From: Ricordea florida
Lineage: Eukaryota > Cnidaria > Anthozoa > Corallimorpharia > Ricordeidae
Reading direction: 5' to 3'
DNA length: 64,000 nt
NCBI GenBank assembly: GCA_949710005.1
Contig: OX453275.1
Coordinates: forward strand, 21,826,691-21,890,690
Both the position numbers and the translations under genes were made by a program. The notes under the pieces are model-generated. The model saw nothing but the letters and a program-made list of their open reading frames with translations, had not been told where the DNA came from and did no database searches. Each line of letters starts with the position of its first letter. Position 1 is the first letter of the stretch. Positions 6,001 to 56,070 of the stretch are shown here, piece after piece.

Positions 6001-7952
6001 TCTTTAATCTTTGAGTTTATGTTTTCAGAGGCAAAAAGGGAGAAGCACCTTTGTGGGGAATGTTAAAATCAGCTCGTACTAAACCAACATGTTCCCAATT
6101 TAAGATCGTCATCACTAAGTTTAATTCACACAGAGCAAAGTCGAAGTTAAAAACCAGAGTTTAAACTATGATTCGATAATGATCGGCCTTCAACCCAAAA
6201 GTCGAATTCATTTGCCAGAACAGTACTTCCTGCCAAATTACTTTCGACTATATTTGGCACAAAAATACGTTTAGAGCCTAAATGGTAGTATATCGATTCA
6301 AATTTTTAAAAGAATTAGCATTTTTATTTTAAAACGTATTTGTGAATAAATGGCCAACCTGTCATTTTAATGAGTTTTGTCTTTATCGTTTTACAGGAAG
6401 TTCAAATAATAGTGATGGTGGCGTTTGATCTTTATTTTCGTATTTTAACCTGCTGTAGTCAAACATAACACGCGGGTCTACGGGTACCATTAACCAATTG
6501 AGCAAAAGACAGAGAAGACGCTCAAAGGTAGACAGCAATAAAAACCAAGTGATAGAGGTCAACATTTTTCTATCATTAGCGTATGCCCCATCGAAATCCC
6601 GAAGAAAAAAAGAAAATTTGTCTTTTAAAGAAAGCCAAACCCAGCGTATTATGTTTAATCTTGATATTTTTTTCAGATCTAAATTACAATAGCTTTTATT
6701 GAAAACCGCAAAGACAGAAACCAGAATGAGAGAAATAACGCGAACAAGGAATCTATACTTTTAAATAGGTTTTGAAAAGTCGCAGCTCATTTGGCCAGAC
6801 CAATGCTTCAGGCTGCGCGAAATATTTGCACACAATCAAACCCACAGACCAACCATGCAAGCTAGAGTGTTAATTTAAATTCTTATTTGATTAGAATTGG
6901 GTACGTTCGCTTAAAGAAGACAAAAAGCTGAGATTAGTACTAGCTCACTGAGGGCGGCTTATGAAATAAACACATGCTCTGACAAAAGCCCAAACAAAGG
7001 CATTTCAATTTACTTTTACACAAACAGAAACTGTGATAGGATACATTTCTACTGTTTAAGCTATCCCTCAGTTACGGCTCGTACAGTGATGGTAAACCCA
7101 TGAAGACATATTCTTATTCAAGTTTAGTCTATTTTTTTCAATCATAACCTTGACATGGCTAAGAGCTATTGGTTTGAATGAAAGGTTCTATTTGTGTAAC
7201 TATCTGTTTGATCGCTCTTCCCTATTTGTTAAGCGACGAATTCGAAAAATATGGGGATTTAGTATAGTAAATTACGCAATTCAATGCCTAAATTAGTCGA
7301 CAGACGCTTGGTTCTATAGCTCTTCCTTTTTTTTCTTTCTCTCTTGAATAGGAGCTCGTGGTTTTCACTTTACATAGCTATACGAAGTGTTCACTCGAGG
7401 TGTTACTTAAAAAAATATAGCGACTTCAAAGCACCGATAAAAATATATCTGAATATAACTTTTCCTACCTCTTGTCTTGGCACTTTATTTTGCATAATTT
7501 CGTTACTTTTCGTCCCATCAGTTTGTACACCTCATTCGTGTTTTCGTATTTTAAAAACCTTTCTTTTTTCTTTGTACAGAGTGTATAAGTAACTCCGTAT
7601 GCTGACGCAAAAGTTGTCAGTCTTTTGCATCACAACAAGCGAAATATTGCTTGAAGTCGAAATAATTCTTAGACACGCGTAGAAACCATCGATTTGGGAA
7701 AAACAATGCCTCAAGCAACCCACTCATTGCATATGTAATGAGTGCACCTGCGATACAATTAATTTCGCGTTCATTTGCGCACCGATACTGCTTGAATAAA
7801 TAGTGATTCATATTGCATAAATAGGGTGCCACTTTTGACTCCGAGTTGAATGTATTTGGGAATCATTGTTGGTCAGAACTAGACGGTTCCCAAACATTTT
7901 TCCTTCACTGTTGACTTGTGCCCGGACTTGACACATAATTTTTTCGCGATAA
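1..7952. other. Non-coding stretch, no gene recognised
   Basis: Nearly 8 kb of AT-rich sequence with only short, composition-driven open frames and no family motifs on either strand. It ends at the FAM181-like gene, so its right end probably includes that gene's promoter and 5' UTR. I could not identify a TATA box or any specific factor sites. Short exons of a diverged gene cannot be excluded. Confidence 0.5.
2771..3065. repeat. Purine-rich low-complexity tract
   Basis: The + strand is dominated by A and G, with repeated GGGAGA, GAGAAA and AATAGGG words. An open frame of 135 codons runs through it, but its Lys/Arg/Glu-rich translation only reflects this composition. Confidence 0.6.
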
Positions 7953-8861
7953 ATGCGTGCTTTCGAAATGGCTGGAAAAGGAAAGTTCGGTGATCACCTG
8001 GTTGAATCTTTAGGCGCTGGAGATGTTCATACAGCAAGAAGGGATGAGCAAATCACGGCTGGTAGTTCTCTGCTCAACTTCATGAATTTGGCGTCCGGTA
8101 ATGTAAAGTCAGCCATGGAGAAGCCAGCCAATTTTAAACGGAACATTAACCACCGAAGGTATCTTCAGAAACAGCTGCGAAACTATGCGAAGCGAAAGAG
8201 CGAAATCTCTGGACAGAAGAAACCAAAGGACGCTCTTCGGCAAAGAACAGGAGAAAGACATGGCCTGTCACGGAACTCTCCTAGAAACGATGGAGGCTTG
8301 AAGAAATCCAGTCGAACGTCAGAAAACCTGCATTATGAGAAACCGTCACTGAGGGAAAGAAATCTGCCTGCGTCGTTTTGGCAGGAACCAATCATCCACG
8401 AAGGAACAGAGAATATTATGTATTCGTTGTACCCACCATTTAACACCAGGGAACCAGAAGATTCTTATACTCCTGTATTTGAATCTTATTTCGACTCTTG
8501 GAGCGACTGTGTAACTCGAGCAGAGGCTCACTCCGAAGAGTTGTCTCAAACAGGGTCGGTTCCCTCCGTGTCGTCCGATGAAGCCGTATGCGACGAATTC
8601 ATGACCGGTGAAGAACTTACACGGAGTATTGACATTAAAGACTTGTATGTACCAGAACTTTACATCACGGACAGGAGCGCTCTAGATCCTGTTCAAGGTG
8701 AAAGCCTTTATCTGGCGCCTATATCACCAACACAGTACATTTTATCTCCAACTTCCTGCGCTGATCAAGCGTATTTTAATTTCTCGCTCGATCACGACAC
8801 ATCGGGACTACCCCCTTTCGCGATGGCCTTCCTCAGCCCGGGATCGATAACACAGTATTAG
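7953..8861 (+). CDS. FAM181: FAM181-like protein with a TEAD-binding Omega-loop
   Basis: Intact single-exon ORF of 302 residues. Two blocks identify it. Residues 40-80 hold LNFMNLASGNVKSAMEKP followed by NINHRRYLQKQLRNYAK, which match the N-terminal helix block of vertebrate FAM181A/B (NFVNLASSDIKAALDK, then HRKYLQKQLK). Residues 132-146 read SLRERNLPASFWQEP, the FAM181 LPASFWEEP motif, and share the Leu-Pro-x-Ser-Phe-aromatic pattern of the YAP Omega-loop. FAM181A/B are reported TEAD interactors, so a nuclear role modulating Hippo/TEAD output is the natural inference. The remainder is low complexity: a basic region at 80-130, then an acidic, Ser/Tyr-rich C-terminal half without a recognised domain. 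Vertebrate members are somewhat longer from memory. The first ATG (7953) has a weaker context than the second (7968, Met6 in GAAATGGCT), which may be the real start. A poly(A) signal lies about 300 bp downstream. Confidence 0.8.
   Translation: MRAFEMAGKGKFGDHLVESLGAGDVHTARRDEQITAGSSLLNFMNLASGNVKSAMEKPANFKRNINHRRYLQKQLRNYAKRKSEISGQKKPKDALRQRTGERHGLSRNSPRNDGGLKKSSRTSENLHYEKPSLRERNLPASFWQEPIIHEGTENIMYSLYPPFNTREPEDSYTPVFESYFDSWSDCVTRAEAHSEELSQTGSVPSVSSDEAVCDEFMTGEELTRSIDIKDLYVPELYITDRSALDPVQGESLYLAPISPTQYILSPTSCADQAYFNFSLDHDTSGLPPFAMAFLSPGSITQY
8346..8390 (+). other. Omega-loop motif of the FAM181-like protein
   Basis: Codons 132-146 (SLRERNLPASFWQEP). Leu138, Pro139, Ser141, Phe142 and Trp143 occupy the positions that in YAP (LPDSFF) insert into the TEAD surface. 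Assignment is by motif comparison only. Confidence 0.75.
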
Positions 8862-9168
8862 AAATTAAAAAGACAATTTCCTCCAAAGTAAATTTTTATT
8901 GCTAATTAATATCGGAGGGAAAATTTCGTGTACAATCGTGTTTCAATCATGTATAGTGGAAGCATGTTAGTCAAAAGGATTTTGTCTCCAATATACGAAG
9001 AACACTAGCGAAGGTTTCAAGTTCAGTCTTTATCTCTGCCTCTTGATATGTTTTCCTTTTCTCTTCTCTGACTTTATTTTTATCAAATGTTCGGTAGTTG
9101 TAAACTGAAAAAAAAAAATAAAAACAACCGAACTGTGTGAATATATTACAATTCATGTTGTTGAGAGA

Positions 9169-9174
9169 AATAAA
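9169..9174 (+). promoter_or_regulatory. Poly(A) signal AATAAA for the FAM181-like gene
   Basis: Canonical AATAAA about 305 bp after the stop codon, within AGAGAAATAAAATG. Another AATAAA in an A-run near 9117 could serve instead. Confidence 0.5.
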
Positions 9175-18097: not shown

Positions 18098-18334
18098 ATG
18101 GCGTTCTCCGTAAACAGCAAAGGGCGAAGTTACTACCGAGGAAAATCAATCGATGAAAGTTTGAGAGGAAGTGTTATCGACTCCATTATGGCGGAAGGCG
18201 GAGATCCAGCCTCAGGGTTCTTTCCAGGAAAGTTTTCCGATGTTGGTAACCGCTTCAGAGTGTCAACTCAATTTGTTTCAAAGTTATGGCCAAATGTTTG
18301 CGCTACGGGTGACCATTTGCCTTCGAAGAATTAA
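18098..18334 (+). CDS. Small paired-like HTH protein of a transposon
   Basis: A 78-codon ORF from ATG at 18098. It contains GRSYYRGKSIDESLRGSVID, then FPGKFSDVGNRFRVSTQFVS and KLW. This spacing resembles a paired-box-type N-terminal DNA-binding subdomain: R-G-K-x-x-x-x-x-L-R, a linker, then the recognition helix V-S-x-x-x-V-S-K-x-W. Such domains occur at the N-terminus of several DNA transposases. No catalytic part is present nearby, so this is a remnant or an isolated binding module. It overlaps the opposite-strand PB1-like ORF by 4 bp at the stop codons. Homology is inferred by eye. Confidence 0.4.
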   Translation: MAFSVNSKGRSYYRGKSIDESLRGSVIDSIMAEGGDPASGFFPGKFSDVGNRFRVSTQFVSKLWPNVCATGDHLPSKN

Positions 18335-18645
18335 ATTAACTCAGGTGTTGATTTAGGTTGCCACATGATTTTTATCTTTAAACGCCGAAATGTCGTTCCT
18401 TGCACTTTGGAAGCACAACGCCAGGCATCGTGGAAGGAGTCGTTCGGGCGTATGGTTACCAACGTGTTCTCATCATCCGCGCACAGTACTCGTAGTTCCG
18501 TGTCAGGTATAAACTGTAAACTCTCAATTTTACCTCTAATTACTTGCATGAGATCTTCAAAATTCTGTATTATACTTTCGGTGAAGATGACTTCACACCT
18601 GTCGACTCCTTCTGGGATGCTATAAAAAGCTTTTAGCTGCAACAT
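18331..18645 (-). CDS. Small PB1-like protein
   Basis: A 104-codon ORF from ATG at 18645. The C-terminal half has TELRVLCADDENTLVTIRPN, then DSFHDAWRCA. This is like the acidic OPCA-type segment of PB1 domains (beta strand, D-x-D/E-x-D/E, hydrophobic strand, then helix). PB1 domains mediate heterodimer formation. It lies inside the palindromic element, convergent with the HTH ORF, so it probably belongs to a transposon. No wider function can be assigned. Confidence 0.35.
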   Translation of the reverse strand: MLQLKAFYSIPEGVDRCEVIFTESIIQNFEDLMQVIRGKIESLQFIPDTELRVLCADDENTLVTIRPNDSFHDAWRCASKVQGTTFRRLKIKIMWQPKSTPELI

Positions 18646-19224
18646 ACTTGTGACCAGAGAAGGAAGAAAAGCAAAAAGGGCAACTATTGTAGTCTGCTAC
18701 ACAGCCGTTATTAGTTTCGTCACGCAACGCTCCTCCCCACTTATCGTAGAGTTCTGGAATGTGGTCACGTGAGTTCATGTTTTTGGTTTGAAAGACAAAG
18801 CCACGTGACCTAAGTCGTTGACGTTTAGCGCCAAAATCAACTGTCACGCGTATCTTTTAATTCGCGGTCTACCTGTTTCGGTAGTAAGTTATCATAATGT
18901 ATTTTCCACTGTCTTTTTACCTGAGAGCATGCGCAGGTTATCGGAGAACGAAAAATGGCGGGTAAAACTTTCCACAGTTTCGTGCGACTCCAACTGAGTC
19001 CCAATATGAATGCATAGTTGGTAGAGGGGACTGGTTAGGAAATCCGGCAAACTTCAAAGGGATAGGTTATTGTTCGATTTTATAAAGATCACGTGATAAT
19101 GACCGTGCAATACCTAAAGTTGCGTCGCAGATCACATGAAGTTGTTGTTTCACGGAAATATCGAGGTTTTCTTTCTTTTTAAATAGTTTAAATCGTTATC
19201 AAACTAGCTGCTTGTGTAAACATA

Positions 19225-21204
19225 ATGCCAGGCGACAATTGTGCCGTAGTTGGGTGCGGATCGTGCAGGAATACTAAAGGAATCGGGATATGGAAGCTCC
19301 CTGCTCCGAGAAACGAGGAGTATAAACAGTGGCGAGAACAGTGGCTGAATGAGCTGACGAAAACACGAGAAGTGGATAAGGACTTCCAAAGATTAATCGA
19401 CAATGATAGAGTGTATACATGCGAAAAGCACTTCGGACCTGATGACATAGAAATTTGTAAGTAGTGCATGTTAAGTTGCGATCGTTGTAGACAGATGATA
19501 ATTCTGATCGTGAACTTAAGTATCTTAACATTCTTTAAGCAATGTCTGCTTTTCTTGCAGTTCATTCTGAAAAGATGACGAAGAAAAAGCCAAAGTTTGG
19601 AGCCCTCCCAACGCTTAATATGCCTAAGAAAAGCCACGATTCAAGGAAGCCTGTGCCGAGACTGCCGAGGTTCATTGTAAGAGATTATGAAGGCAACGAG
19701 TCGAACAAACGGATCTACAAGAACTTTGAGGAACTTTGTGTCAGAGTAAAATCTCTGAAAACTCTTTCCACGTGGAAATTAGAACAACTGAACGACAGAA
19801 TGCTTATTAAAAGGCTAAGGGATTCGTTTTTATTACCAGAACTCGAACTAGTAATCGACGACAGTCTTGGGTTCACTATCAAAGTGTATGGGTGCTTCTT
19901 ACCTGGAGACCACGAACTTTATTCAAACTACTTAAGGTCTGTTATGAATGTGTCCGTTTCTAACCTTGTCAAGGATATGGAGAGTTATTTTATTTGCCCT
20001 GGTGTTGATCCTTCAACTTGTCATGGTGTGATACAGCATGTCGTTCCAAAGTATGTAGATCACTTGAAGGAAGAAGAAGATTTTTTCCCAAGTAAACAGT
20101 ACTGGCGTGCTAAGGGATGTGAACTTCTGTGTGAAGGCAATAACCAGCAGTGCTTGTCTTGCTCCAAATATTCGCATGCAGTGGATAAAAGAAAAAGATC
20201 AAAGCTAAAAAAATTATCAGAGCCAGCCCACATCAACTCTCCAGTATCACAAACACCGCCTGAGCGAATTAAACTCACACTCCAAATGCAGAGATTAAAG
20301 TGTGCACAACTTGAGCAACATTTGAAAGAGATGAAAGCAGAAATAAAAAAGTCCAGCGTCGAGGTTGGCCATGATCTAAGCAAGGATCTAGTATCAATTC
20401 TGGGGAAAACCAGTGCTAAAATAACTCCATTCATGGAGTTATTTTGGCAGCAGCAGAAAAAAATGTTTTCAAGCAGTACGACTGGAGTACGATTTCATCC
20501 AATGATAAGAAGATACTGTTTGTCATTGGCAGCGAAATCTCCATCCTGCTATGAGGAATTGAGAAACAGCGGAATTCTTGTGTTACCAAGTCAGCGCACA
20601 CTGAGGGACTACAGGAACTTTATAAGGCCAAAGAGAGGTTTTCAAGAAAGTGTCCTACAAGAGCTTAAAGCAATGACAGACACGTACTTTGATGTACAGA
20701 GATACATTGTGTTGCTCTTTGATGAGATGAAAATCATGTCTAATCTTGTCTTTGACAAGTTTACTGGTGAACTTATTGGTTATGTGGACTTGGGGGATCC
20801 AAGAGTGGAAACAGATTACCCTGAACCGACCAGGCAACTTTACTGCAAATGCCAGAAGCAGAATGTTCCTGTCGCGGCAAACATATGAGGGGATGCAGAT
20901 AACAACCCATTCAGTTGTCGAAGCTACCAAGTTCCTACTTCAAGAAGGGGTGGAATATGTTTTGACAGAGAGATTTTGTCAAGATCCAATTGAAGAATAT
21001 TTTGGAAGTCAACGAAAGATCGGAAGAAGAAATGACAACCCAGATATTCGAATGTTTGGATATAATGACAACACTATTCGAATTCAACGCTCTGTTTCTT
21101 GTCAGTCTGGAAACACCAGAGGAAGGAAAGATAAGAGGAAGGCATGGGTTAATGTTAGCGATGACCCTCTACCAAAGAGAAAAAAGGAAAAAAGTGAACT
21201 TTGA
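19225..21204 (+). pseudogene. THAP-domain P-element-like transposase, internally deleted
   Basis: Exon 1 (19225-19456) encodes a THAP zinc finger with Cys6, Cys11, Cys66 and His69 and ends at a GTAAGT donor. Exon 2 starts at 19561 after TTTTCTTGCAG, giving in phase DDIEIFHSEKMTKKKPKFG. It continues through a Lys-rich linker, a coiled-coil-like segment near 20280-20360, and the start of the RNase H-like core ([20 protein letters not shown], then YVDLGDP). At about 20795-20805 the frame jumps. The next recognisable family sequence ([20 protein letters not shown], then [17 protein letters not shown] and GRRNDNP) is in another frame and about 250 codons of the usual protein are missing, including the remaining catalytic residues and the GTP-binding insertion. 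It is therefore dead as a transposase, although a truncated THAP protein (stop at 20886) could still bind transposon ends. Confidence 0.8.
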
Positions 21205-26676: not shown

Positions 26677-27004
26677 TTAACCCTTTAAGCCCCGATAGTG
26701 TCTTTACAGATTTTACTCTGGCTAACGCCAGACGATTTTACTTGTCACAGGGAGACCCCTCAGGGCTTAAAGGGTTAAAAAGTATCTCCTTAACCCTTTA
26801 AGCCCCGATAGTATCTTTACAGATTTTACTCTGGCTAACGCCAGACAATTTTACTCCTCACAGGGAGACCCCTCAGGGCTTAAAGGGTTAAAAACTATCT
26901 CCTTAACCCTTTAAGCCCCGATAGTGTCTTTACAGATTTTACTCTGGCTAACGCCAGACGATTTTACTTGTCACAGGGAGACCCCTCGGGGCTTAAAGGG
27001 CTAA
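26677..27004. mobile_element. Three tandem 102-bp MITE units
   Basis: Units at 26677-26778, 26790-26891 and 26903-27004 start TTAACCCTTTAAGCCCCGAT and end CTTAAAGGG(T/C)TAA, so each is bounded by inverted repeats with TTAA at the ends. Each has a central hairpin CTGGCTAACGCCAG. The period is exactly 113 bp with an 11-bp spacer (AAAGTATCTCC in the first gap). TTAA ends suggest a piggyBac-type or Kolobok-type origin. Another end (GGGCTTAAAGGGTT) lies at about 37079. Confidence 0.85.
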
Positions 27005-31350: not shown

Positions 31351-34300
31351 TCACCAAGTTGTTAAACTTCCCCTCCTGTGATTAAAAAGCTGACGCACTG
31401 TGCTCAGAAACCCGTTTGCGACCGATGACGCTTGAGTCCTCTGTCGTGATTTTTTAGTAAACCGTAGCTGGAAAATCATGTTTAAGAACACAACTTGAAC
31501 GTTCCTGTTTGTAAGGGCCGAAGTCTCGTAATATGCGCATCCAAATTCCGAAGCAGTCTCCCGGGCTTCGTCTTTTCCGACGCTTCGCCCTCGTCGCAAG
31601 TCTCGTTTATTTCCGACCAATAAAATAGGCACCTGTTGATCACCGTCTGTTTTCCGAACCTCTTTGATGAGTTTAACCATTTGTCTAGCCACTTCAAAGC
31701 TGTAGTGATCGTTTATTGAGTAGACTACTACGAACCCCTCTCCATTTTTAAAATACGAAGCTTCGGCCTGTAAAAGCAATACAACAAACATTTGATCTAC
31801 AGAAAAAACCTTAAAAACTCGTTATTCATTTTCTAGAACTCACTTCTAACTGATTATGTATATAGCCTTAATTTTTTCTTTTTTTGTATAGTTAATTTTA
31901 GCTTTGCTCGGCGTAATGGGCAACCTTTCCTAGGAATAGATCTAGAGGTTTCTGAGAATAAAAGAAATAGGACCACACTACAGAAGCGTTCAGGGGCCTT
32001 TTAAGTAATGTTCACACCGCATGGTTTTATTCTCAGAAGAAAATGTTTAAACCACACTGTATAGTAAAACAAACAGTACAGTACTGTGCAGTAGTTTTAC
32101 AAAGAATGGTCACACTGCATGATTTGAGTCATTAAAGTTAGAATCATACTGTATAATGAAACAAACAGTGCCACAGTACAGTACTGTTCAGTAGCTTTTC
32201 AAAGAATCGTCACACTGCATGGTTTGATTCTCAGATGAAAAAGTTAGAACTACACTGTATAGTAAACCAAACACACAGGACAAATACACAGGATAGTACT
32301 GTTTAGTAGCTTTCAAAATAATTGTCACAGTGCATGGATTGATGTAAAAGTTAGAGCCACGCTGTGTCATTAGTGAAACAAACAGGAACAGAGTACAGTA
32401 CTGTTCAACAGCTTTCCAAAGAATGGCAAAAATGCACAGTTTGTTCCACAGATTAAAATTAGAACCACACTGTATGGTCACGCTCATTGCATGGTTTGAT
32501 TCACGGATAATATAAGTTAAATCTATCTTAATATAGTGAAAACGAAGTACCGCATACATTAATGTTCAGTATTTCTCTAAAGAATGTGGTTACAAGGCGT
32601 GGTTTGACCCACAAATAAAAAAGATAAGAACCACACTGTATAGTAAAACAAACAGTACTACAGTACAGTACTGTTCAGTAGCGTATTTTCAGGCTTTTTT
32701 CAGTTTCCAGTTTTGTTAAGCCTCGAAAGATTGCTCATTGGTAAACTAAACAAAGTAGATTTATTATCAGCCGTCTTCCAATTAAGTGTTGTCGGTTTCG
32801 TTTAGATCTGTGACATACGTCGCATTTGACATGCACTTTTACTAAAAGTTAGGTTCGTGTGCATGTGAAATGTAGCCTGCAGAACAGGCGTGATTTTTTT
32901 TGCGTATTTCAGGCGAACAGCGCCTCCCCGCGCGAGACTCGCCGGCCATCACGCGCGACTCGTTTTCGCCTCCGTTCACCTGAAATACGCAAAAAAATCA
33001 CGCCTGTTCTGCAGGCTATGTGAAATGCGACGTTTATCAAAGGCCTTACAATTGCAAAGTTCTACTATCTCAATGCAAACAAATTATGAAAAACATCAGT
33101 AAAACAGGCAAGCGAAGCTAACACAAAACGCAGAGAGGAGGGGGCTGCATGCCTAGACGTGAACTGTGCCCCACCTACAAGGTCGAAGTGAAAAATTGAG
33201 GCACTCTCCATTTACGAAATTTTCCGATAGGACTTTTCGTTTGGAAAATTTTGCTCTATCAGGAGGTTTTCCGGAAAATCCCTGAGGCGTGGAATTATCG
33301 TGGCTGTGAAAGTTAAAGAGCTTGGAACTGGTGCAAAATCATGACGGAAAACCATAAATTAGAACATTTCCCGACAGGAAAACAGGATTAACCACCCAGG
33401 GCTTTCCAATTACACGGGAAAACCGGTCAGTGTACGGCCTCGGCAAATGGTTAACAAAGTTGGGAAATTCTGTTAGGGATCAGTGTCGTTTATCATAAGC
33501 AAAACCAACTCCTGTTTGTGCGGAGAATCTAGAACAGACATCGAAAGGTATTTTAGCGGACTTTTAAGTAAATGGAACACAAAATTCCGTTTGGAACATT
33601 CCGATCGGAAAAACAGGACTAAATTTTCTATACTTTCGTTGCTTCCGGAAAATTATCACCGGAACTTTCAGGAAACTTGTGTTCTGTTTACTTTCCATAC
33701 GGAATTTCCGGAATTTTTTTTTTGTAAATTGTAAATCAAACAGGAGTTGTTTACCATTTACATGGGAAAACTGGTCTGTGTACGGTTTTGGCAAATGGTG
33801 AACAAAATTCAGAATTGGGAAATTCTGTTTGGGATGGTCGCATACCATTTGCTAAAACCACTTCTGTTTGCACAAAGAATCTAGAACTGACTGACATCAA
33901 CAGGTTTCATACATGAATGAAGAGAAATGGAATACGAAATTCCGTTTGGGACATTCCGATTGGGAAAACAGGACTACCTTTTCAGACGTTCCGTTGCTCC
34001 CGGAAAACTTCCATCAGAACTTCCAGGAAAATTATGTTCCATTTACTTTCTAACCGGAATTTCCGAGAACTTTTCAGTAAATGGTAAACCACCAGGTTTC
34101 CCAATTATTCCTGAAAATTTCCTTTGGAAGGAACCAAAAGGTTGTACCCATTTACATCTCAACCGGAATTCTCGCGAATTTCTAGTAAATCAGAAAAGCG
34201 ACCAGGTTTCAGTACCTTTTCGATACATTTTGACCCGAATGGCCCTTATTTCACCAGTTGAGGGCGATGGGAACAGAAACGCTGTTGCTTCGATCCTGGC

Positions 34301-36774
34301 CAACCGAAATCTTTTGTTATCGTAGACTGAAATCAGATCTGAAAGTAGCTACGTAAATTGACTCCCTGATTGGCAAATCCATTGTTTGTTTTTCATGTTT
34401 CTACCACATGAGGTAAATGTATTTGAAATTCATTATTTGTAAAGGGATAAATTGTACAAGAAGGGAGTGGATACTTACGTTTCCGGCCGTGTCTAGAATT
34501 TCCAGTGATACTAAGTTGTCTCCAATGGTTACCGTTTTCTCGTAGATCATTTCTGAGAAAAAAAAAATGATGAATCAGAGATTTGAACTACCAAAGTCGA
34601 GACATTGCTTTATGTCCCGCTACTGGGATAAATTCAAAAGGCTAAATAGGTTAAGCCGATGGATGGTCGTATAATCTCCCGACCAATATCAACTTTACTT
34701 CAAACTAAAACGGTAGAGCTGTAAATTAAATGCTTCGGAACCATTTTTGTGGACTAATAAACACGAGCGGAAATGACCTTCAAATGTACGGAAAGACAGG
34801 AAAGACTGTTTATACGGTGACGTAAACACAGCGAGTTAGTGGATTCTTTGTAATGTGAACATCCATAGTCGGTAGGCAAAAGGTTATTTGTGCATCCAAA
34901 AACAGAGAATTAGGACCTGTTCACTTGGAGGTGGGGGACCCCAGGTAGGTGAGGTACCTCACCTCGGTGAGGTTACCAAACTTTTCATACAATCTCTCTT
35001 TTTTTCTTGATTGTGTTCACATGCGAGGTGGGGTACCCCGGGTAGGCGGGTTACCCGGCTAGCCAGGCCGGGTAACCCGCCTAGCTGGGGTGAGTTTTCT
35101 CCATGTGAAAGCTCGAGAGTGGGGTAACCCGCCTAGCCGGAGTAATAAAATCCAAATTGCGCAAAGCCCGCCAAAAAAAATATGGCTGCCAACCACTACC
35201 AGCGTGGCGAGTTCTTTCGACGACATAAACTCAAACAACTCGAAACCCCTGAACTTGACAGTGCCCGCGACAATTTGGAAACCGATTGCGGAAAATTGCG
35301 TTTCCCACCACTTAGGCGTCTTTAGTCCCCATCTTTGTTTATGTGCGTACTTTGTCACTGCGCGATAGCATTTTAAACCTCACCCCACCTCGCCGGATTG
35401 CATGTGAAGACAAGTTTTCTTCACCACGGGTACGTGGGTACCTCACCTACCCGGGGTCCCCCACCTCCATGTGAACAGGCCCTTAGTCCATGCATCAAAC
35501 GAATTATGATAAAACGATTAAAATTCTTTCGATAATCTTTATCAACGCATTAATCGCTTTTTAATGGAGTTTTTCAGCGAGGAATGTTTTTCGCTGGGCT
35601 CATATTTCAGCAAGTAAACCTGTAAATTAGCTGTTGAAAAATATGTACGATCATTTAAACCTATTTGTGCGTTTGAGTACTACTAAAGGAAGGCAACATC
35701 CTCACAACAAAGACCAACAAAGCAAAGCTTCGTCGTTCGTGTCTCTAGACAGCATCAAACCATAAAAGGCCTATTCAAATTTGACTTACCGAGTGTAGGA
35801 TCGTATTCATTGAGAAATCGCCCAGTCACAAATCTCACGACCAGGGCTGCAAAGTAAAGGGGCAAGAAATCTGTCAATCACGGTAATCGCTCATTAAACA
35901 GTACGGCATATGGAAGCTAAATAGCTAGTTTCTAACCGACAACTGCGGCTTTAAATCACAAATCAGGAGCGACAAATGCTAAGATGAAAGGAACCCACAG
36001 GAAATGCATCAACTCAACTGCTGTTATGCAATGAAATGGTATTCGTCAAAATGTTTATGGTATACTAACGAGTAAAATAAAATCGGCAGAAATGAAACCA
36101 TACGTAATACATTCAAAACTTTGGCGATCAAGCAAAGCAAGTGGTTCATGTTGTTTGAGTCAATATAAAAGTCTTAATGGTGAACTTTCAAGGGGTATTT
36201 TGGGTTAAGTTTTGTCCAGCCCCACACATCTCAATGATTGCTTGATCCTATAGTATCAGCGAATCCAATCTAGCCGATCCCTACCCCTCTCATATTCATT
36301 GACTGGTGTGACGCACTGTGAGTGCTCACTTGATACTCAAGTCGTACCAAAAAAAAAAAAAACAGGTGATTCAAGTTCAAAGACTTTACCTGTTTTGCCG
36401 ACACCTCCTGCTCCGAGCAACACAACAGAATGTTTTTCGCTGGCGGTTGGTATGGTTTCCTTGCTTGAGGAGGACTTGAGCTTGCCACCTAACAAACTCG
36501 GTCTTTTCCTCGAAGTCGACGTGAAGTCCAATTTAGCCGGGCTATTTTCAAGTCTGGCGCAAGCGATGCTGTTGCTCCGACTCATGGCGGGCTTCTTCTC
36601 AGCAGAGTAGGGCAGACTTAAACTTCCTCTTCTGGGAAAACGACAGCTTCCTCCAGCGCGCTGCTGCGGTGGCGTTGAACGGCTTAGGGGCTCACACATT
36701 TGTATCGGCATTAATGAAGAGCCGTGACTGAAGTTTGAGGTTCTCGCGTATTCTAGATCTTGCTTCAGAGCCAT
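31351..36774 (-). CDS. Ras-like small GTPase (RERG/RASL12-type)
   Basis: Four exons: 36774-36390, 35846-35790, 34552-34479 and 31767-31351. All introns are GT-AG and all phases match, giving 310 residues. Residues 1-112 form a Ser/Arg/Pro-rich extension without a domain. The GTPase fold starts at 116: P-loop GAGGVGKT (121-128), ALVVRFVTGRFLNEYDPTLE with switch I Thr146, DTAGN (168-172), NKRD (225-228) and ETSA (253-256). ALVVRF-x-T-x-RF-x-x-EYDPTLE and EILDTAG are typical of RERG/RASL12. The catalytic Gln after DTAG is Asn here, so intrinsic GTP hydrolysis is probably altered. The tail (RRGSLTTW) has no CAAX cysteine, so prenyl anchoring is not expected, as in RERG. It probably acts as a cytosolic signalling switch. 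RERG versus RASL12 orthology is unresolved. Confidence 0.85.
32000..32690 (+). repeat. Tandem array of a ~110-120 bp repeat in intron 3 of the Ras-like gene
   Basis: Five to six imperfect units with CACACTGCATGGTTTGATTC, AGAACCACACTGTATAGTAA, AACAAACAGTAC and the palindromic core ACAGTACAGTACTGT, then TTCAGTAGC. The same unit occurs inverted at 13625-13920 and at about 39100-39215. Confidence 0.85.
32873..33018. mobile_element. Foldback MITE, 146 bp
   Basis: TAGCCTGCAGAACAGGCGTG at 32873 pairs with CACGCCTGTTCTGCAGGCTA ending at 33018. The arms continue through GCGTATTTCAGG/CCTGAAATACGC. The GC-rich centre contains CGCGCGAGACTCG. It lies in intron 3 of the Ras-like gene. Confidence 0.85.
33210..34200. 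repeat. ~348-bp direct duplication rich in GGAAA/TTTCC words
   Basis: The segment starting GGGAAAACCGGTCAGTGTAC at 33416 recurs as GGGAAAACTGGTCTGTGTAC at 33764. The shared order is AAATGG(T)..., GGGAAATTCTGTT, GAATCTAGAAC, AAATTCCGTTTGG, ACATTCCGAT, then CCGGAATTTCCG. Flanks carry more degraded copies of GGAAAACAGGA. It is intronic and non-coding. Confidence 0.75.
34913..35482. mobile_element. 570-bp Harbinger-like MITE with TTA duplication
   Basis: The left end GGACCTGTTCAC then GGAGGTGGGGGACCCC matches the complement of the right end GGGGTCCCCCACCTCC then GTGAACAGGCCC. TTA flanks both sides (34910-34912 and 35483-35485), as in PIF/Harbinger elements. Internal GGGTAACCCGCCTAGC words repeat. 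No ORF. It lies in intron 2 of the Ras-like gene. Confidence 0.85.
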
Positions 36775-52790: not shown

Positions 52791-54462
52791 TCATGTGACG
52801 TAATCAGTCAAATAAGCAGGTCGACGTCGCTCTCGTCTAGGCCTAGATGACTGTACTCTGGGAGTAGGAGAGCTGGAAGTAGAACCTTCTGTCTGAACTG
52901 TAGGAAGCTCTTCCAACTGTTGGTTGGTATGCCCTGATGATCCGTTTGCAACAGTCTCTTCAGAAGAATCACTTTGTTCAGGGATGGCTTGGACTGGACT
53001 GCTGGACTGGACTGGACTGGCAGCATTCATAAGTAGTGTTTCTCTCCAATCCTCACTATCTCCTCTTTTGGCACCTTCCTCAAACATGATAGCATTAGCC
53101 AATTTAAACTGGCTTGAATCTCGGTTTATCTCACGACCATCTGTAACTCGCCTTGCTGTGATTGTAGAACCACTAATTCTGATAACCGTGTAGAAAATAG
53201 GCTCATAGGCGGTCGACCATTTATTCACTTTCTTTTGTCTAAGTAGGACATAGTCTCCCACACAGAAGTTGTGTTCTTTGATATTCACGCCATCGCGTCT
53301 CATCTTCTCCTTATATACTTGGTCTTTCTCATCAATCAGCTCATCCTGCTGACTTCTTTCTCTTGGTACTGTGTGATCAAGTTTCGTCCTAATAGGCCTA
53401 TTCGACATAGCTTGGTATGGAGTAACCCCAGTGGCAGGGTGAGGTGTGTCCCTATATGCCATCAGCATGTCACTGACAGCCATATTCCGGTCAAGTCCAG
53501 TTTTTCCCTGGAGATGGGCGATTTGTTCCGTCTTGTTTAACAGTTGCATGAACCGTTCCACCTGGCCGTTGGCTCGGGGGTGTTCTGGTGTTACACGATG
53601 ATGGTTGAAACCCTCTTCTTTTGCAAAGGTTTCAAACTCTTTCGAATTAAATGGCGGTCCATTGTCAGACTGCACTCGTTTGGGTACACCGTGATAAGCA
53701 AACATTTTCTTCAACTTCTCTTTAGTTGGCTTCACTGCTGTTGAAGACACCACCTTTACTTCCGGGTATCGGGTTCTTTGATCTATTGCTACCAAGTTGT
53801 AGTGACCGTCTGGGTAAGGTCCTCCGAAATCGATTGAAATCTCTTCCCAAGGTTCCTTCGGGATCACCGATGGTTTGATAGGTTCTTGTCTGCGATTTTT
53901 GGTAGTAACTTGACAGTCAAAACAATGGCCTATCATTTGGTCAATCATCGCATTCATGCCAGGGAACCAATACTTAGCCCTAAGCATCTGTTTCGTCTTG
54001 GTTGTTCCCAGGTGTCCCAGCTTGTGGGCTGATTTGATGACTTTCTGCTGTAACTCCATTGGTAAAACAATTCTTTCCATTCTGAATATCAGACCTTGTG
54101 CTTCGTAAATTTCGTCCTTAATCGGGTAGAATGGTGCCAGGTCAGCATCCTTCTTGCTGGTCTCCCAATTACCTTTCCTGATAGTTTGGCTCAGTTTCTG
54201 CAAAGCTCTATCCCGATGTGTTTCCTCTCTAATTCTGTCCAGCACCACTGCATGCTCCGTTTCAATACTTGCCTTCAAAATCTTCTCAGTGTCATTGTTT
54301 CCAACAACTGGTAATGGGTGCCTTGACAAAAAATCTAGAGGGTCAGCCTCATCTTTACCAGGCTCATATTTCATTTCGAAATCCACATCCTGCATGTCCA
54401 TCACCCATTTCTCGATTCGAGGAGGAAGCTTTGCCGTTGGCTTATTAAACAATGGTTTTTTT
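52791..54462 (-). pseudogene. Ty3/gypsy pol 3' half with intact integrase
   Basis: The recognisable protein starts in the last part of RNase H (PLFNKPTAKLPPRIEKWVMD, then EPGKDEADPLDFLSRHPLP). It runs through the integrase HHCC finger (HKLGHLG ... HCFDCQ) and DDE core: SIDFGGP (Asp), VQSDNGPPF (Asp) and HPRANGQVERF (Glu). A GDYVLLRQKKVNKWSTAYEP chromatin/target-binding-like module and a Ser/Pro-rich tail ending RRPAYLTDYVT follow. Protease, RT and most of RNase H are gone. The frame stays open another 64 codons to 54653, but those residues derive from the neighbouring repeat. The integrase is uninterrupted, yet with no 5' LTR the element cannot move on its own. Confidence 0.85.
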
Positions 54463-54477
54463 AACGTCGTATAATCT

Positions 54478-56070
54478 ATGAATTTATTCACTGTTTCTAT
54501 GGATCTCGAGCGCATGGAAAAATATTTCGCTCTAATTACCATCTTGCAAGTAAAGCCAAACAATAACGATATTCGACGTAAAATGGTAGATGGACAAGAG
54601 ATAAAATTATGGCTTTTTGCTGAGAATTTGACAGGTTTTGTGAAGAATGACAAATCTTTTAAAAAATTGTCTCTCTCTTTAGGAAATGCTCTGGTCTCAC
54701 CGACTATTAACTATGATACTGATTGAAGTCGGAAACATTGTTGCTGGGATATTCTTCCTTTAATCCCCCCAACCTCAGTAAACCAGACTCTCTTTTAAGG
54801 ACATAAATCAGGGGCGCATCTAGGAGGGGGGGGATTAGGTGGCTAGCCCCCCCCCCCCCATTACAACATCCCAGAAAAAATAAATAAAATTGAATAAATA
54901 AAACAAAACAATAAGATAATTATAAGAAAAAAAAAATAAAAATAATAATACAAACTAGAAGTACGTCCGAAATACGTCCGGTGCCATTTGTACCTGGGTA
55001 TTCTTTTTTAAATTGACTACCTTGGAAATTTATTAATTTTAAACTATGCAAATCTGTAATTTCAAGAGGCTTGGTAGTCAAATTTGTTCGTCTGACGTAA
55101 ACATGCATAATAAGGACTATTGCAACGTTTTGGGAGTAGCCGTTGTAAAAATTTAAACCTAACATTTCCTTTGGTGGCCGATTGATATCAGCCACCCCCC
55201 TTCAAAAAAAATCCTGGATCCGCCCCTGTAAAGATAAAAGAATCTGTAAGATTTCTGGGATGTACTTCACGCTCGATCGTCATCTCATTCGCAAACGTAA
55301 TTTCGACGAACATACCAAATCCATTAAGAAGAAGTTGAAAATTTGGAAATCGGGAGGGATCTAACTATATTATTGGTAAAATTGAAATTATTAAAACCTT
55401 CACTATCCCTATTTTCTTATATCGTTCTAGTTTGATTTGTATAGACAAGGAATTTTTTAAGGAAATTAACAAAATAATATTTAATTTTATTTGGAGAGGC
55501 ATAGACAAAGTGAAACGTCGTGTACTCACTACTGAGCGATATTGAAGACGGTGGTTTGAAAGCTCCACACTTGGATTCTATTATTAAAACTCAAAGAATA
55601 CTTTGTTGTAAAGAGCTTGCGAGTGACGATCTTATTAGTTAAAAAGCTATTCTTCTTCACTACCTAAAACCGGTTGGTCGCAAATTTATTCTCAGTTTGC
55701 AACCTTGATGTAAAAATGCTGCCCATCAAGCTTCCGTCCTTCCACAAGGAATATTTCCAAGAGATCTCAAAATGTTCTGCAGCAAATAAAGCTCATCCTA
55801 GCCTTGTCCATGGTTCGGATATCTCAGGGATAGTCTTATGGAACAATAGATGTATCTCAATTGGAGGCAAAACTGTTTGCATCAAAGAAAAGGTAGAGAA
55901 AAGAATTATGAGAATACATGACTATCTTGGCTGATAGTAAAGATTTAAATGAATGGGGAGGGGTGCAGTGTAGATCAAAGATAAGCACTTTGTTCACTTT
56001 GCAACATCTGAAGAAATCATCTGCATCATGGTTTTAAACAGCGGAAATTAAAAAGGAATAAAATAAAAAG
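54478..56070 (+). pseudogene. Tx1/L1-like LINE ORF2 remnant
   Basis: Several frames preserve ORF2 pieces in order. Near 54590 is MVDGQEIKLWLFAENLTGFV, where the RT catalytic F/Y-A-D-D has become FAEN. Near 55230 is VKIKESVRFLGMYFT, and then KSIKKKLKIWKSGGI. Near 55660 are KPVGRKFI and VKMLPIKLPSFHKEYFQE. Near 55830 is VLWNNRCISIGGKTV, then RIHDYLG. This order matches Tx1-type coral LINEs from memory. Frameshifts, the motif loss and a MITE insertion at 54809 make it defunct. Confidence 0.7.
54809..55228. mobile_element. 420-bp MITE inserted in the Tx1-like LINE
   Basis: The left end CAGGGGCGCATCTAGGAGGG and the right end TCCTGGATCCGCCCCTG are near complements, with G-run and C-run just inside. 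It interrupts the LINE coding sequence between the mutated RT motif and VKIKESVRFLG, so it is younger than the LINE. Its interior is AT-rich. Confidence 0.75.

Follow-up and report, generated by a model that had tools for sequence, protein, structure and literature searches.

We identified, within the window (the whole 64,000-nucleotide stretch of Ricordea florida DNA analyzed here), a gene that is, with a probability of about 0.8, a cnidarian member of the FAM181 family, encoding a protein, probably disordered and probably nuclear, whose Omega-loop would occupy interface 3 of TEAD alone and compete there with YAP. The open reading frame (ORF; P0001, 7953-8861 on the plus strand) comprises 302 codons plus a TAG stop, is uninterrupted, in agreement with the intact single-exon-type frame claimed in the preliminary description, and gave a self match on contig C4 of the assembly (G000). 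Its first ATG lies immediately 3' of an in-frame TAA, and codon 6 (Met6, 7968-7970, plus strand, context CGAAATGGC) is a second in-frame ATG with a better start context (GAAATGG) than the first and, judging from that context, the likelier start codon. The longest ATG-to-stop ORF in the shuffled window reached at most 220 aa, with 0 of 200 dinucleotide shuffles attaining 302, and shuffling the ORF alone left the frame open in 0 of 2000 trials; the length and openness of the frame exceed chance. Candidate polyadenylation signals (AATAAA at 9117 and 9169; 9117-9174, plus strand) and tentative TATA-like elements (ATAAATA at 7796 and 7817; 7796-7823, plus strand) flank the ORF as consensus matches.

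The assembly comprises 537,793,885 bases in 48 contigs, with C1 to C16 measuring 24.7 to 48.6 Mb and the other 7 of the 23 contigs examined being 86 kb or shorter. The window (G000:C4:21826691-21890690) lies inside a 36.6-Mb contig, and a stray contaminating contig is therefore an unlikely source of the gene. The cnidarian origin proposed for the gene finds support in the assembly's mitochondrial contig, which we take to be that of a hexacoral. Under the coelenterate code, this contig, C48 (21,378 bases), is read here as a mitochondrial genome, its genes being named from a reading of the translations, and its cox1 is interrupted by an ORF; introns in cox1 are characteristic of Hexacorallia. 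The tRNAs recovered on C48 (ARAGORN, bacterial code, three pieces) were Met (cat) and a tca tRNA labelled SeC, which we read as mitochondrial Trp, and a black coral mitochondrial genome is described with two tRNAs, trnM and trnW (PMC10836483). As expected for an animal gene, searches for relatives gave 22 pattern matches and 0 relatives in the prokaryote contig collection and 0 pattern matches in the viral contig collection.

The two motifs earlier quoted for the protein, LLNFMNLAS...HRRYLQKQL (8070-8183) and NLPASFWQEP (within 8346-8390), were found where they had been placed, and the numbering given for Leu138, Phe142, and Trp143 is correct. The former defines an N-terminal conserved block at aa 40-77 (LLNF...HRRYLQKQLRN; 8070-8183, plus strand), and the latter belongs to the TEAD Omega-loop (interface 3) at aa 132-146 (SLRERNLPASFWQEP; 8346-8390, plus strand), identified by Pfam, by a PDB chain, and in the genome search. 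Up to the loop end, the protein has a net charge of +15, and the C-terminal half (8391-8858, plus strand) is acidic (net charge -21) and aromatic. AlphaFold2 modeling of the protein alone gave a mean pLDDT of 38 and was of use only for a low-confidence N-terminal helix, predicted at aa 30-86 with ten-residue mean pLDDT of 44-71 and containing the N-terminal block. In the Pfam scan of the window protein, PF15238 was the sole family, with no match to WW or TONDU (PF07545) and no model above its cut-off for the N-terminal block. A TPD line for that block (E = 0.061; 13.6 bits, the cut-off being 27) was taken as chance, and its single PDB line, an engrailed construct (E = 0.66), was at chance level.

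The loop had been described as a YAP-like TEAD-binding element, and matches to a Pfam profile and to a solved chain support its identity as an Omega-loop. The Pfam model of the Omega-loop, TEADIR3 (PF15238), matched aa 133-146 of the window protein with E = 1.4e-5 and 25.6 bits, 0.4 bits below the curated cut-off of 26 for the full protein, and rose above it with a 20-aa loop piece (31.2 bits) and at this locus in the genome-wide search (29 bits). The best solved chain for the full protein was the FAM181A peptide of 6l9f (E = 0.33); with a 29-aa query, 15 residues aligned to the same peptide at E = 0.0039, and an unrelated hydrolase also matched at E = 0.35. When the 6l9f FAM181A 15-mer was compared with all six frames of the window, the loop site ranked top with a score of 62 versus 28 for the runner-up, and the loop of the paralogue described below placed the same site top with 57 versus 30. 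By these sequence comparisons, the loop match exceeds chance.

The whole-assembly search with the window protein (E up to 0.001) returned two matches, the gene itself and C7:32745525-32745686 (E = 2.1e-7, aa 28-81, 44%), the latter falling within an uninterrupted 331-aa ORF (L002:676-1671, minus strand). This paralogue holds both blocks in the same order as the window protein, LLNFVSS...KRKVNHRKYLQRQ and then PLRKRKLPESFWNEP, aligned with it by BLASTP at E = 7e-15, and matched PF15238 with 28.8 bits, above the cut-off of 26. Region by region, the N-terminal parts of the two proteins scored 128 and the loops 64, values reached by 0 of 2000 shuffles in each case, with the linkers diverged to chance level (858 of 2000 shuffles). 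The C-terminal halves are weakly alike (score 48, equalled or exceeded in 20 of 2000 shuffles), sharing a weak patch WSD...TGS...SS at aa 183-208 (8499-8576, plus strand), and the charge up to and after the loop is +15 and -21 in the window protein and +13 and -14 in the C7 protein. Co-conservation of both blocks at two loci on different contigs is, at the level of sequence, the strongest evidence that both matter, and it is independent of the provisional human sequences used below. It also marks out the N-terminal block as a second functional part of the protein. A search with the C7 paralogue surfaced a single additional place, on C12 (L008; G000:C12:5635200-5635475, 90.6% identical to the C7 gene over 278 bases), which we considered as a third FAM181 gene and rejected, since it represents a fragment, a truncated C7 copy surrounded by stops; no Omega-loop was found in the 3.3-kb C12 locus.

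Two regions are described as conserved in the FAM181 family, one of them N-terminal (aa 59-106 of human FAM181B), the other being the TEAD region (PMC9710580). The combination of an N-terminal block followed by a TEAD loop within one protein is present in the window protein and in the C7 paralogue. Against provisional sequences of human FAM181A and FAM181B, the N-terminal part of the window protein scored 131 and 135, with shuffle maxima (n = 1000) of 55 and 57, respectively, and the C-terminal parts showed no likeness. In these provisional sequences, the N-terminal block is identical to that of the window protein at 21 of 38 positions in FAM181A and 20 of 38 in FAM181B, and the C-terminal half of the window protein has no detectable similarity to FAM181A. 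The provisional FAM181B block (65-103) falls within the 59-106 region of PMC9710580. As it depends on provisional sequences, the correspondence between the N-terminal block and human FAM181 counts as a strong lead, short of a test. The FAM181-like assignment of the preliminary description finds support in the loop (Pfam, PDB) and in a same-genome paralogue with both blocks.

The loop of FAM181A in 6l9f (PMRKRQLPASFWEEP) is identical to the window loop at 10 of 15 positions, with its Met replaced by Leu133, and the provisional FAM181B loop is also identical at 10 of 15. An exact LxxLF motif (the interface 2 helix) was absent from the window protein and the C7 paralogue in a motif search. In the provisional human sequences, FAM181A lacks LxxLF, like the window protein, whereas FAM181B has it, as LAALF, together with an SFF loop, neither of which occurs in the window gene. 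Unlike FAM181A, the window gene has a second copy elsewhere in the same genome. FAM181A and FAM181B are both assigned interfaces 2 and 3 in PMC9710580; contrarily, a review (PMC10146773) presents both as devoid of the interface 2 helix and gives 6SEN as the FAM181A-TEAD complex. The label "YAP-style" given to the window loop holds for interface 3 only, the LxxLF motif of interface 2 being absent.

Placement of the window gene in the PERCC1/C19orf85 branch, FAM181 relatives sharing the N-terminal helix, rather than in FAM181 proper, is improbable. The N-terminal regions of PERCC1 and C19orf85 are homologous to that of FAM181 and a PERCC1 loop is reported (PMC9710580), so that by description, the only basis of comparison here, PERCC1 has the same architecture of N-terminal helix and TEAD loop as the window protein. 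However, PERCC1 is described with interface 2, and PERCC1, FAM181B, and YAP/TAZ are all assigned LxxLF together with PxxxRxLPxSFFxxP (PMC9710580), whereas the window protein lacks LxxLF, has Ser at the first Pro of the PERCC1 pattern, and carries SFWQEP, close to the SFWEEP of FAM181A. C19orf85, for its part, is described as being without recognizable TEAD motifs (PMC9710580).

The Omega-loop is common to the window protein, YAP/Yorkie, and Vestigial, and the gene could in principle be a divergent paralogue of either that has lost its other domains, a reading to which we give very little weight. The genome-wide PF15238 search (E up to 10) gave 10 matches, 4 of them above the cut-off, on C7, C4, C3, and C14, and the last two show that YAP and a Vg_Tdu gene exist as separate loci. 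The C3 locus (L034) is YAP, with LKALF, PMRLRKLPPSFFKQPP, HSRAHSSPASL, and WW matches; its Omega-loop is identical to the window loop at 7 of 15 positions, and the window protein has neither LxxLF nor WW. The C14 Omega-loop (L043; PMSERNLPPSFWDPA) scored 27.3 bits in the genome search and 25.5 bits, just below the cut-off, in another scan, and an ORF about 2.7 kb upstream of it on the same strand matched Vg_Tdu (PF07545, E = 7e-8). A regular-expression search had missed the TONDU motif at this locus, giving one unrelated match; the motif was then spotted in the ORF list and confirmed by Pfam. We infer that these two minus-strand ORFs (G000:C14, L043:5979-6557, with Vg_Tdu, and L043:2812-3324, downstream, with the loop) form one Vestigial-like gene. 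Its loop is identical to that of the window protein at 8 of 15 positions, with Trp at the last aromatic position in both, but this Vestigial/VGLL2-type locus has TONDU in the neighboring ORF and Ser at the position equivalent to YAP Arg87, where the window protein has Arg134. Loss of the loop in VGLL1/3 has been proposed (PMC7566471), and a cnidarian Vestigial-like loop would fit an ancestral state. The window protein shows no WW, TONDU, or LxxLF and hence lacks the parts that define YAP and Vestigial, and its N-terminal block was re-found only in the C7 paralogue and the truncated C12 copy.

It is extremely unlikely that the loop is a short motif which an unrelated protein shares by chance or convergence. 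The loop spans just 15 residues, and at E up to 10, sub-threshold PF15238 matches occurred in 7 of 14 control genomes, with 6 of the 10 matches in the present genome also below the cut-off. Against this, 0 of the 14 control genomes had a match above the cut-off, and the second locus on C7 retains both blocks in the same order.

Returning to the FAM181 assignment, we compared the loop with contacts described for YAP, in which Met86, Leu91, and Phe95 occupy the pocket, Phe96 stacks on Arg87, Arg89 pairs with Asp272 of TEAD4, and Ser94 lies at Glu263 and a tyrosine, with Vg having Trp at the position of YAP Phe96 (PMC7566471). By our own alignment, the counterparts in the window protein are Leu133, Leu138, and Phe142 for the pocket, Trp143 and Arg134 for the stacking pair, Arg136, and Ser141. 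The TEAD partner-binding domain (PF17725, E up to 0.001) was identified only on C9, in four exons, and the joined exon translations matched TEF-1 (TEAD1) chains at about E = 3e-84. The translation covers the aspartate of IYDKF and the tyrosine of HHIYRL, and a reading frame upstream at the same locus has ADPHLE where, by our own placement, the contacting glutamate is predicted. The tyrosine is numbered Tyr409 in PMC7566471; the fitting one is Tyr429 by count, with the chain end taken as 434. The contact residues present in the window protein and, to the extent covered here, in the TEAD of this genome thus appear compatible with the TEAD interface proposed in the preliminary description. A second TEA-domain ORF of 286 aa was observed on contig C15 (L049:1486-2346, plus strand; TEA 91.5 bits); as the partner-binding domain matched only C9, the C15 protein may be unable to bind YAP or FAM181.

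In the mechanism that we propose, the Omega-loop (aa 132-146) would dock on TEAD interface 3, with Leu133, Leu138, and Phe142 filling the TEAD pocket, Trp143 stacking over Arg134, Arg136 forming a pair with the aspartate equivalent to TEAD4 Asp272, and Ser141 binding the TEAD glutamate and tyrosine. Recognizable interface 1 and 2 elements are absent, and binding would be by the loop alone, excluding YAP and the Vestigial-like loop from the interface 3 site. Effector function would fall to the N-terminal block together with the acidic and aromatic C-terminal half, either in cofactor recruitment or in a competitor role. Expression of the gene, and the TEAD binding, nuclear location, competition, and output of its protein, are what we infer from these features. 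In vertebrates, FAM181A is reviewed as binding through interface 3 only, with an unclear function (PMC10146773), and FAM181A/B co-precipitate with TEAD4, although a review states that any influence on TEAD transcription could not be established in HEK293FT cells (PMC12672301). TEAD forms the DNA-binding output of the Hippo pathway of growth control, and a cnidarian with two FAM181-type genes would offer a simple animal for testing FAM181 function. Because this genome holds two FAM181-type genes, YAP, a Vg-like loop gene, and apparently one partner-binding TEAD, our results suggest that several Omega-loop cofactors used one TEAD surface before Bilateria.

The preliminary description had also presented FAM181 as mostly a vertebrate matter, and here the cnidarian gene stands while non-vertebrate occurrence as such is not new, FAM181 in the annelid Capitella being already published (PMC9710580) and FAM181B being named in another annelid, Urechis (PMC10380512). 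The species list in the Figure 1 legend of PMC9710580 has, as that legend reads, no cnidarian, and our literature search for FAM181 in cnidarians found none, though public protein databases may well list predicted ones; in a Hydra paper (PMC8526868), "FAM181" denotes the N-terminal domain of YAP. The new elements are the presence of a FAM181-type gene in a cnidarian and its occurrence there in two copies. The sequences suggest that the FAM181 family predates the cnidarian-bilaterian split.

A further reading, that the split into A-like and B-like FAM181 genes itself predates this divergence, with the window gene A-like and the C7 gene B-like, we regard as doubtful; if true, vertebrate FAM181A/B would not be a vertebrate duplication. 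In a quartet combining the two cnidarian genes with the provisional human A and B sequences, C4 grouped with A and C7 with B at 97% bootstrap on 53 columns, of which 1 is strictly informative, and the alternative groupings stand (p-AU 0.088 each, p-KH 0.156).

Other features were annotated in the window. Two transposon-type ORFs were identified, one with a TNP-like RNase H (19539-20885, plus strand, 449 aa) and one with an integrase (52794-54710, minus strand, 639 aa), along with a tandem repeat at 26677-27004 (113-bp unit, 2.9 copies, 94% matches). A PB1-like ORF (18334-18696, minus strand) matched PF00564 with E = 2.1e-4 and 21.6 bits, below the cut-off of 23.6. A Ras-family GTPase ORF (31354-31821, minus strand) matched PF00071 with E = 3.6e-23, and an upstream ORF (36340-36774, minus strand) had no Pfam match and contains a P-loop-like LLGAGGVGKTG; the two possibly form one gene, presumably of the RGK type.
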